Assembly (NCBI RefSeq): GCF_037975245.1
Contig: NC_092573.1
Span: 2,914,501 to 2,978,500, forward strand
Direction: 5' to 3'
DNA length: 64,000 nucleotides
Source of the DNA: Apostichopus japonicus
Lineage: Eukaryota; Echinodermata; Holothuroidea; Aspidochirotida; Stichopodidae
In this document: piece by piece, positions 271 through 6,200 of the stretch
Layout: each line of letters opens with the position of its first letter
Numbering within the stretch: position 1 is the stretch's first letter
Program-made: the position numbers and the translations under genes
The notes under the pieces: generated by a model
Databases searched by the model: none
Told to the model about the DNA's origin: nothing
Seen by the model: only the letters and a program-made list of their open reading frames with translations

Positions 271-3200
271 ATCTTTATTTGTCAGAAAAAGTCCCAGTGA
301 TTGACAAAGCTCCATCTGCTCTTACTTTCCATCGTCGATGGGTGACTTCAAATAGACCTGTCATCATAAAAAATGCAGTAACAAAATGGCCAGCTTTGGA
401 AATATGGAACTTGAATTACCTCAGGTAAAGTAGGACCTCTTCCAGTTATTTTTCATGAATAATTACACAACTACAATCAGTAGGGAACCACCAGATGTAG
501 ACAGTCCAGCATTTCAGTTCCTTGTCATCCATCCAGGATGACCTCATGCCAGACATTTCATTGATGTTGAATTGATGTTAAGCAAAACCAAAACATCTGG
601 CTTTGATGTGTTTGAAACACATTTTAAAAATTCTACTTGTATGTGTACATATACTGAAGGCCTCCTGGTTTCAGTACAGAAATGTACATATACAGTATAC
701 ATAAAACAGTGTAAACATCAAGTAGAATTTCATTACATATAAAGTGATAATTTCCAGAGCCTCTTCATATAAATGTATTGCTATTGAACTTATTAATGAG
801 TATTAACACCTTGAAATACATTTTTTCCAACAAACCAATGGATGCTTTTCAGTGTTGCAAATATCATTGAAAAGAGACGCACCGAAGGGGGGACGTGGAA
901 GGGGTCCTAGCAGGCTAGCAGTACGAAATACGGCACAACGCAATAGTATCCAGTTTCATCAGTATATTGGCAGCATAAGTTCAGAACTGTTAAGAACATC
1001 CTCTGCCCAGTATTAATTAAAGATGATAGCCAGCATCCTTCAAACCTTCAAACATCTAGGGAAGCAGTGTCATCACAACCAGAAAACTCTTGCCATCAAC
1101 CCCAAAAAATATCTGTTTTCTTCAATTAATTAATTTCACTATTAAAACTTGCTGTCATAGAACCTCTTGGTCAGCATTGAACAAACAGCATGGCCCCAAC
1201 TGGTGACTGACTGCTTCACTCATGCAGCGTAACAATATTTGGTGAATTCCAGCGTGACTGATGGGACATTTGATAGAAAAGTCCAACAAAGAAAGTTATA
1301 TTGTTGAGAAGTGGGAGGGGGCAGAAGGCTATAAATTGCAACATTCACTTGGGCTACCCCCAGCTGGTCCATCATTAAAGAACTGTTCACATAAGTGTGT
1401 TCCTTTTTAGTAGGGAGCACTTAGAGTAGCCCTGTGACTGATGGGACATTTGGGACCACCATTTTTAGGTACCTTTAGTTAACTTGTAAGCGCTATCTCA
1501 GAATGAAAAGAAAGAGTTGGGTATATACCTCTCCTGGTAGCTACTTAATGTAGCTATATCAGAACACCACCATTGAGAGAATATTGGCATTAACTATTTC
1601 ACACAGTGGCATTTCCCTTGTGACTGATGGGACCAAGGGCGTAGGAACCGGGGGGGCTGGGGGGGCGCCAGCCCCCCCAGTGAAAAATATGGGGGGGCGG
1701 AAGTATCGTTCCGCCCCCCCCCCCCCCCCCCCCGCTCCACAAGTCAGAAAACCCCTTTTTCATTTCAAAATGAGAAAAAAATCTCATTTGAAGCACCAAA
1801 TTGCATCTAAGGCCAGGTGAAAATGCAAAATTCTTTACAAAATGGAGTGGGTGTTGAAGTGTGCTATATTGCACCAAATTGCATCTGAGGCCACCTGGAA
1901 ATGCAAAAAAATTCCAAAGGGGAGGGGGATACCCCCTCCCCTTACACCCCTCCCCCAGGCCGGCCATCAGTCTTCAGCCCCCCCACTCAAAAGTACCTTC
2001 CTACGCCACTGGATGGGACAGAAGCTCTGTGACTGATGGGACGCTATCTCCTCCAAAATTATAGCAAATTTTGTTTTGCACTAACTTCAGTTTGCATCCA
2101 CATATGGTGCCAACTAGCATTAAACTTGGGTCATCTGGGCTCTAGTCACCCATAGTCATCACAGGTAGGGCCCACTGGAGTTGGCCCATGGGGGTGTGGG
2201 TCCCCCATTGGTTTGCCATATGAGCATCCCATAGAAGCAACTGGCATATGTAGAACAGACACATGCCCATGGGAAAACCTGTTCCATTCCACACTTGCTG
2301 TCTCATATAGCCCCATATGACTGAGTCATGGGTGTGTGATTTGTTGGGGCCTCACTGGCAAAGCTGTTTGGGCCCATATTTGGTGAGGTATGTTGCCCAT
2401 GTATGGGACTCATGTCATCCCACTTCTGTGTATCAAGTACTGACAAATGGAAAAATGAAACACACTCCATATGCATTTGAAACTTGCATTTTATTTATTA
2501 ACAATAACAGAACGAGCTGAGCCTTGAAACATGCAACCATTGATAATGAACAGGATACTAATTATACAACATTGATGAAGTCATTTAGGTCACATGAGCT
2601 TTTGACAATATGCTGAGCTTAACCCTGGGCAGCAAAAGTACCGAGATACTTTCAACTGTGGATTAGGGTCCAATCTGCCCATCATATAGTGAAAGTCTAA
2701 TACAATTTTTTTCAGGCGTATTCTCTATTTTCCCCAAAATACTAAAGTGGTCAATATCCCATAAGGAAAGAGCCAAAACTAATAGGCAAAGGGGCATACA
2801 TATACTATAAAAAGGGTCCACCTGGCCTTACCAATGATTGGATTGGACCTTACAGTACATCAATGAAGTTACAGCCTAGTGGTTCTGTGGTTACTAATTC
2901 ACTTGTGTGACGGGCCCTCCTGTGGTGATACTGCAAACCAGGAGTGTGTTGTACAGTGCTTCAGGTTCTTTTTCCCCCTGATAGACCCACCAGTTCCTTC
3001 AACTCGGTCTCATTGTTCTGTGATCCAAGAACATTGCATTCCTCAAATTTTGGACAGAAGGGCCTGTATGCAGTGATCCAGCCTTCTCCACAAACCTCTG
3101 TGAATGCCACTGCTGTAGATGATAAAAGTTGTTATGTCATTTCTTTTTAGGAAATTAGGTTTGAATGGAACGATACTATTCTTGTACTAATACTTTTTGG

Positions 3201-6200
3201 CATTGCAAACTGTCCAATATAGGCTATACTATCTGAACCATACACTGTGACTGATGGGACATTAAAATCCAAAGATCTGACATGTATACCAATCTTGATT
3301 CAGGATAACCGTCACAGGTCAATGAACACTTCATCATGTCACCATCATGTCAGTGACACAAGCTGCTTTCAATAACATGGTCTAACAAATTAATTTGAAG
3401 AATATACTGTACCTGTATTCTGTTTTGCGTTTTCATTCACGTTCTCGGCGCTCTTGTTTCTGTTGTGAAGACATCTCCGCTTCTTCTTGTGGGCCCACTG
3501 TTTGCGATACGCTGATTGTGTTTTTTTGTATGCATCATATATCCCCTCTGCTTTCAAACGTTCCCTCCTGTTTCCCTGTCTTTCAGCACTGGATTTACCC
3601 ATTTTGCATTGCACCACACATGCAGCCTAATTCTGTGACTGATGGGACAGAACTTTCAAGTTGTCTAGCACATAACCCTATACACAATTGAAGAATCTCT
3701 GCTTATGCCAGATTATGCCCTGAGTAGTACTAGATAGATAGACCCCCAACAACAGCTGAAATCATTCTGTTGGCTTATGACTAAAACAAATGTTAAAAAA
3801 CTGTGACTGATGGGACATGTCCACACTCATTATTTCAAGAAATCACACAAAGACTTATATTCATATAGACACCTGTAACTTTGCAGAAGGTGAAAGGTCT
3901 CAAGGTGACTTCATACTCAGTACAAAGTTGGTCATTTCTGGAATCATGCCAACTATTAAAGGTGCACTCTGAATTTTAGGAAATTTTGCTAATTTTTCAT
4001 TCCCTGCAGCACTTGACGGTTAAATGCATGCTGCAGTGAGGAGAAATACGTTATAAGCCAGGTGAAACCTGTTTTGGGTAGTTTAACTGTCATGTATATC
4101 AAATATCTCCCTCAAGTGTCTGCAACCTAAAGTTGTTTTTTAGTGAAAAATGCATCAATTCCATGGAATTCACCATATACAAGGCGCTACTGACCTTGGA
4201 AGCAAGAGCAGCAGTACCCTATGTAGTGTGTTTACAACTAACGCTCTTACTACACTTATTAGATACTCTAAACACTAAGAAAATGACCTTCAATCTCTTA
4301 GAAAATAAGCAACAAACTCTGGACTAAGTTCTGTAGCACATGCACACTAAACCCACAGTTGTAGAGAGGCTATGCATGTAAGGTAGCCCACTGCTCAACA
4401 TCCTGTTTCTAGAAAATGAGAGTACAAAGGAGGGTGAACATGAGGATGACAGAGTTCACCCATGGAGAGCAAAACAGGCAAAATTTCACTTTTACCACAT
4501 CATAATCATATTCCCTCAAGTAGTGGGCATGTGCAACTTTTAATTGATAAAACTAATGATATTTCTTACGGATCATTTTTTTATGTAATTTAAGAATGTA
4601 CAAAATTAATTGTCATTTTATCAACTTTAATGGCTTTGAACCCCAAACAAATAATCAATTTTGTTTTGTGTATCCTCTACATGATGCTACTTCTTTGTTG
4701 ATTCTGCTATTTTCTCGTCATCAGTTTTGGTATTTTGTATCATTTCTCGTAGTATTTTTCAAAATTTTAAAGAGATATCTTTGTAATTATTAAATTAGAA
4801 TTTGAAACCTGCATACAGTTTAATATCTGCTGGGTAACACTCATCAGAAATGCTATAAATGACCAAAGTTTAATCCTTAATTTTGTTTCTGTTTCTGTAG
4901 GGAAACTCTTAAGCAGAAGATGGTTTCGGTTGCTGTAACACCAAATGGACTTGCAGATGCCGTCGTTGAAAATCAGTTTGTCTTGCCAGAGGAGAAGCAG
5001 ATGAAATTCTGTGACTTTGTTGCTTGTCTCGAGAATCAAGAAGAAAATAGAGGAATCTATTATATTCAGAAACAAAATTCTAATCTTACTCTTGAGTTTC
5101 CAGAATTGCTTGAGGATGTAGCTGGAGAGATACCCTGGGCATCTGAGGCATTTGGTGAGTTAGGCATGAATAAATTATGTTTCCCTCTTCCAATTCAACC
5201 ATGATGATATTCTTAAGTAGGTTGTGCCTTTAAAAACCATTCACAGACTTTTTGATGTGTCAAATTAGACTAATGAATTATCTAATTGTGTTTAAGTTCA
5301 CAACTTTTGCCACACAGTGATTTCATGTAACGATACAATGATACTTTGTTTTAGCTTATGAAAAGTTATGGAAAGTCTGAGGCTCATTATTTAAAGTGGC
5401 TGAAGTGCTGAGTCTAACACACAGACCATTTTGTTAGGGACTAATAGTAACATTATAAAAATCATTTAAGTTAAACACACAAAAATTATCCCAATGTAGA
5501 ATGTGCTACAGATTTGATACAAGTTTTATTCAAGACTTAATATGTTTGTATATTACTTCCCGATGACAGATAAAAAACCAGATGCGGTTAATTTATGGAT
5601 TGGGAGTAAAGAATCTGTGTCATCAAGTAAGTTCTGGTATGCCTGCATGTCGCTTCTGGTTTCCATGGCAACAGTGATTGTCAAATCATAAACAAAAGTA
5701 AACCTAAAGATATAGCTATTAAATGAAACACAATGTAATCTCTATCATGTCTAGACTAGACTGAGATAAGTTTGTAAGATGAGATTATATAATTTATTAT
5801 AAGTAACAAATTTTAGAAGATGTTTGTATTCATGATCCTTACTTAGAGTTATTCTGACTTCACTCATTTTTACCAATTAGCAACCGCTGCATCACTCTTT
5901 GCAAATGCTATCGATGTATGCAGTTTCTTGCTTTGATGGAGGTACAAAAAAATTATGTACTGTAAAGCCCTTAAAAAAAAAAAGTTTCAAATATTTATAT
6001 TGTAAAAATGACATATTTCACTTATTTTCTCTTTCAGTGCACAAAGATCATTTTGAAAATCTCTATGTTGTAATTACTGGAGTAAAGCACTTTATACTTC
6101 ATCCTCCCACCGACCAACCCTTCATACCTTACGGTAAGATAATCCTCATTATCTCTTCCAATCTGCTTTCTTGTTCATACCCTAGAGATTAAAAATGCCA

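Follow-up and report, generated by a model that had tools for sequence, protein, structure and literature searches.

Seven identical copies of a 14-nucleotide word, GTGACTGATGGGAC, lie within one intron of the JMJD7 gene of the holothurian Apostichopus japonicus and belong to a non-autonomous DNA transposon, one member of a family, which is inserted in this intron at positions 1241-4174 of the window (the whole 64,000-nucleotide stretch that was analysed, C13:2914501-2978500). The 14-mers are conserved beyond the surrounding DNA, both between two types of the family, A and C, and among the type-A copies, and they probably bind the transposase of the element or a helper protein, a reading that is built on sequence comparison. 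The puzzle posed by the intron is thereby resolved into a transposon family, which serves as a caution that short perfect repeats inside an intron may belong to a transposon instead of regulating the gene.

In the window, the word is found at the following positions, always without a mismatch and on the same strand, as originally predicted:

1254..1267, plus strand: 14-mer copy 1, exact match, 2 bp inward of the left terminal inverted repeat (TIR)
1434..1447, plus strand: 14-mer copy 2, exact match
1620..1633, plus strand: 14-mer copy 3, exact match, its final 8 bp forming the left target-site duplication (TSD) of a nested hAT-like element
2029..2042, plus strand: 14-mer copy 4, exact match, doublet partner of copy 3 (spacing 23 bp in relatives)
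3247..3260, plus strand: 14-mer copy 5, exact match
3635..3648, plus strand: 14-mer copy 6, exact match, 32 bp upstream of the ATG of a minus-strand frame
3803..3816, plus strand: 14-mer copy 7, exact match

None of 100 dinucleotide shuffles of the window contains an exact match. No version of the word with one or two mismatches is present in the 64 kb, and allowing up to three mismatches adds three matches elsewhere in the window, each with three mismatches, against a chance expectation of 3.5. No relation is seen among the flanks of the seven copies, save for a preceding T in six of the seven and a following A in five. With the nested element set aside, four copies fall in the left 420 bp of the transposon and three in its right 930 bp. 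A minisatellite was considered and rejected, the tandem-array scan having reported none at 1254-3816. In the literature, the word turned up only in papers on cartilage or synovial cells, judged by title.

The genome search covered a single 671.6-Mb assembly, in which the exact word occurs 225 times, compared to 36 occurrences of a reversed-word control. Among the matches listed (100 of the 225), 17 clusters account for 98 and the other 2 stand alone; an equal density across the genome, one of two outcomes that the original prediction had named as speaking against it, is thus not what we see. The other outcome, residence of the word in an abundant transposon family with full copies between sites, was found, full copies included, although with about 39 loci the family is small rather than abundant. 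Twenty regions were fetched by way of exact 14-mers. Those designated L031-L048 represent 17 loci (L047 and L048 being parts of a single locus), and the array is present in all of them, at spacings of about 180, 187, 23, 1,215, 388 and 168 bp that are fixed in the copies read, although some sites are missing, changed or displaced by insertions; L049 and L050, the two single words, have no other match to the window. The DNA between the 14-mers had been described as unrelated, and within the window copy it is; across loci, however, the spacers of the window copy have counterparts in the type-A and type-B relatives that were fetched, at an identity of about 91-98% (L046 aligns in patches only). 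Because family members share their spacers, repeated insertion of a very short unit, one of the origins first proposed for the word, is rejected.

The transposon and its ends are as follows:

1241..4174, plus strand: non-autonomous DNA transposon, type A, delimited by homology boundaries against 7 other fetched type-A copies
1241..1251, plus strand: left TIR GGTGAATTCCA, 11 bp, at the homology boundary and from the left-end search
4164..4174, minus strand: right TIR, TGGAATTCACC as read on the plus strand, at the homology boundary and from the right-end search
1237..1240, no strand: left TSD ATTT, one mismatch to the right TSD
4175..4178, no strand: right TSD ATAT, paired with the left TSD

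The element is 2,934 bp long as present and 2,548 bp once the nested element is subtracted together with one of its two TSD copies. Homology to the type-A copies spans the interval from about 1240 to about 4175 and stops at the TIRs. Among the 10 copies seen at both ends, 8 are flanked by a perfect 4-bp TSD, different in every case (acat, aaat, tgtt, tact, agta, ttat, gtat and ccaa), and the window copy (attt/atat) and L058 (ttat/atat) show one mismatch each. The family accordingly displays the marks of a DNA transposon, namely, TIRs at the homology boundaries, a locus-specific TSD of constant length and dispersed copies. A literature search with the 11-bp TIR plus 'transpos' gave no paper on such an element, judged by title and with repeat databases not covered.

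Between copies 3 and 4, a second mobile element interrupts the window copy:

1634..2011, no strand: nested hAT-like non-autonomous element, CAAGGGCGTAGGAA...TTCCTACGCCACTG, 378 bp, skipped by the matches of the fetched relatives
2012..2019, plus strand: right 8-bp TSD GATGGGAC of the nested element, a partial 14-mer that arose from the duplication

This element has imperfect TIRs, and the duplicated 8 bp, GATGGGAC, are the tail of 14-mer copy 3; we take it to be hAT-like from the length of the TSD and from the type of its ends. Another copy, 91% identical, lies at 61558-61929 of the window. The distance between copies 3 and 4 is 409 bp in the window and 23 bp in the fetched relatives, and the longer spacing is therefore secondary, given that the hAT-like element was inserted between them.

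A census by DNA similarity at the right end, made without using the 14-mer, gave 38 matches: 12 of type A (the window included), 24 of type B and 2 of type C, where the type is assigned by the point at which the match stops, that of type B ending before the TIR. The right end is intact in 14 of the 38, on many contigs; it is reached at 11 loci other than the window, and the left end is present at 11 other type-A loci. With up to three mismatches, the left end is found at 16 places (12 type A, 2 type C, 1 type-B-like with a left TIR and 1 unassigned), and with up to one mismatch, the right-end word is found at 17 (13 in the family and 4 others; control 0). Doublets of sites 3 and 4 occur at 38 loci besides the window, whose own doublet, split by the nested element, stands outside this number. 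Type C comprises L046 and L058, which are 98.7% identical to each other and combine type-A ends with spacings of 180, 187, 23 and 168 bp and a shorter interior; both carry six exact 14-mers in one orientation, with 371 bp from the fourth site to the next. Five end-like places lie outside the known copies (C3:17861914, C7:15828121, C15:24111774, C22:9855869 and C9:36673647), with either the right end at one mismatch or the left end plus site 1 at three mismatches; these may be chance matches, decayed copies or an unknown partner.

To compare the 14-mers with their surroundings across types, type C was aligned with L038, a type-A copy; the alignment excludes the first 27 bp and covers the left part, which is free of gaps, and the stretch from site 6 onward. 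All 70 bases of the five aligned 14-mers are identical, compared to 528 of the 906 spacer bases (58%); the Fisher test value of 3e-16 serves as a guide only since the bases are not independent. Among 8 type-A copies, differences from the majority letter amount to 3 of 784 positions in the 14-mers versus 364 of 19,484 elsewhere (Fisher 0.0005), and 4 of 1,000 random window sets were as low as the 14-mers. The majority letters of types A and B differ at none of the 84 positions of the six shared 14-mers, at 3 of 179 in the exon-like stretch described below and at 36 of the remaining 2,182 positions of the core, a figure in which the 14-mers are counted. Finally, when up to three mismatches were allowed, 36 of the 38 doublets were perfect, and the 988 bases of the set carry 2 changes where 10.8 would be expected (P 0.0015); the expectation uses within-type rates for 11 type-A, 25 type-B and 2 type-C doublets assigned by place, the type-C rate being assumed. 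Conservation of the 14-mers that exceeds that of the spacers is as expected of protein-binding sites needed by the transposon. That a diverged subfamily has retained hardly more than its ends and the 14-mers suggests where the cis-sites required for movement lie. The original suggestion of a site kept by binding, which does not hold for the JMJD7 intron, thus probably holds for the transposon, on the strength of the comparison between types A and C, of that among the type-A copies and of the doublets, but not of that among the type-B copies.

In the mechanism that we favor, the 14-mers would serve as subterminal binding sites, and the protein bound there, either the transposase or a helper of the TnpA kind, would come from an autonomous partner. 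The bound protein would gather on both ends of the element, which would then be paired and cut; copies that retained the 14-mers would be the ones that moved, so that the word would stay uniform while the spacers drift. Several observations weigh against this scheme. The 7 type-B copies, which are mutually close (98.0-99.6%), show no extra conservation of the 14-mers, with 4 differences in 588 positions versus 126 in 16,156, and 443 of 1,000 random sets were as low. Fetching by exact 14-mers favors intact words, which is a bias. No autonomous partner was recognised via the frame protein, right-end, left-end and doublet searches (the five end-like places were left unread, and the partner may be missing from the assembly). 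All seven 14-mers point the same way at both ends, which differs from the repeats of Kat1 and CACTA elements.

The first two of these observations would also be accommodated if the words had been copied inside one ancestral element and then inherited without any function, the type-B copies showing no extra conservation and the fetched copies having been found through the word itself; nevertheless, types A and C share 100% of the 14-mer bases versus 58% of the spacer bases, and we regard such a neutral origin as very unlikely. As to the bias, the right-end search, which is independent of the 14-mer, recovered the same family; 3 of the 16 type-A and type-B right-end places on contigs in the word listing have no adjoining exact word, as judged by eye, and all three are type B. 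The uniform direction would be accounted for if the 14-mers acted on RNA or as replication-type iterons: one orientation is kept by the seven sites in the window and by the six in both type-C copies. Orientation is, however, the sole basis of this proposal, which appears to us quite improbable.

Binding to the 14-mers might also serve expression rather than movement. The open frame that the original prediction had noted beside one of the 14-mer copies is indeed there, in the form of an exon-like frame common to the family:

3414..3602, minus strand: exon-like frame MGKSSAERQ..., common to the family, with a possible splice donor after it, by eye

Its ATG is at 3602 on the minus strand, and sites 6 and 7 lie 32 and 200 bp upstream. 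A search of the genome with the frame protein gave 46 matching rows, at loci that are also in the right-end or doublet census (compared by eye); the frame is changed in several copies, the window copy among them. A known domain was rejected, as Pfam holds no family above the cut-off for this frame, which may be the first exon of the gene of the element; no further part of that gene turned up. One can conceive of a regulator that binds the 14-mers to control this gene through its promoter, first exon and far end, the transposon itself being accepted. The two sites upstream of the ATG and the presence of the minus-strand frame throughout the family fit such control; four sites, however, are at the opposite end, if the last pair of type C (168 bp) is equated with sites 6 and 7, site 5 and the exon-like part find no space, and neither type-C locus has a match in the frame protein search. 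Control of the element's own gene is therefore an unlikely function of the 14-mers in our estimation, and binding by the transposase or its helper is the reading that we retain.

With regard to the host, the naming of the gene as JMJD7 was right, since the exons that flank the intron match the solved JMJD7 structure (2.7e-38):

271..424, plus strand: JMJD7 exon upstream of the intron, from the match to the JMJD7 structure, splice sites by eye
4901..5154, plus strand: JMJD7 exon downstream of the intron, Cupin_8, from Pfam and the JMJD7 structure match, splice sites by eye

A uniform word amid free spacers is also what would be seen if the 14-mers served a regulatory role in the JMJD7 intron and were preserved by a DNA- or RNA-binding protein of the host. 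This explanation is rejected because the paired sites recur at 38 other loci, on many contigs, inside a mobile element, with the same array in those that were fetched; moreover, the window copy carries the hAT-like insertion at site 3. Host regulation is thus extremely unlikely, and all that is possible in this direction is co-option of this one copy by the host.

The type-B copies (L042, L043, L044, L039, L047 and others) consist of a transposon core without TIRs inside a larger shared unit. Over 7.7 kb, L042 matches L043 at 98.3%, and other type-B copies align at about 95-97% across shorter distances; in L042, a 146-bp tandem array lies at the left and 209-bp arrays at the right, and for L035, only 209-bp arrays were reported. 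The type-B core seems to have been captured by a larger repeat, 24 of the 38 right ends being of this kind. Contig C16 holds 10 of the 24, a crowding that may reflect local duplication rather than transposition, and the copy at C16:19648190-19650682, with a left TIR (one mismatch) and a type-B-like right side, is a possible intermediate between types A and B. In L047 (3875-9901) and L048 (1-4218), about 10 kb are inserted in the type-B core, between sites 4 and 5; this stretch was considered as an autonomous interior, and no transposase was recognised by eye in its long frames (no family-library scan was made). Elsewhere in the window, a tandem array with a unit of about 400 bp occupies 12088-14245.

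Among known transposons, hAT elements generate an 8-bp TSD, compared to 4 bp here, and on this ground, the family was not assigned to hAT. Subterminal repeats that modify the action of the transposase or bind a helper are described for hAT (PMC4763223) and CACTA (PMC8195511) elements. Like the present element, hAT transposons and their derivatives (Ac/Ds, Hermes and the domesticated Kat1) carry multiple copies of a short word within their ends but not in the TIR (PMC4763223), and Ds elements have 11-bp TIRs, the same length as here, and some subterminal repeats in common with each other (PMC4763223, PMC3260210); the Kat1 repeats, however, switch polarity between the ends (PMC4763223), whereas here all run one way. 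In the CACTA (En/Spm) group, in which most copies are non-autonomous, subterminal repeats of 10-20 bp are bound by the helper TnpA, but the termini are CACTA, the TSD is 3 nt and the repeats are both direct and inverted (PMC8195511); with its GGTGA ends and 4-bp TSD, the family was not placed there.

According to the Repbase rule, membership in a superfamily is indicated by the same TSD length plus a match of the termini (PMC4455052). The Ginger1 and Ginger2 elements share the 4-bp TSD but have TGTNR termini and TIRs of about 40-270 bp (Ginger1) or 50-180 bp (Ginger2) (PMC2836005), compared to GGTGA and 11 bp here, and were rejected on termini and TIR length. KolobokP, found in 7 animal phyla, resembles the family in its 5'-RR...YY-3' termini, TIRs of 11-18 bp and solo-repeat TSDs of 3-4 or 4-5 bp, and differs in its long terminal direct repeats of about 450 or 660 bp (PMC9587614); the direct repeats reported in window 430-4900 do not exceed 38 nt, and gapped repeats can escape. 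Kolobok has a TTAA TSD (PMC9587614), in contrast to the varied TSD here, and the family yielded no transposase gene to set beside that of Kolobok. No better fit came from the portion of PMC10045372 that was consulted. The single direction of the sites is unusual beside the cases consulted here. It is conceivable, if rather doubtful, that the family represents a separate lineage of DNA transposons with RR...YY termini, a 4-bp TSD without a fixed target and 14-bp iterons in one direction and at fixed spacing, in which a directional array, and not mirrored sites, would tell the two ends apart.

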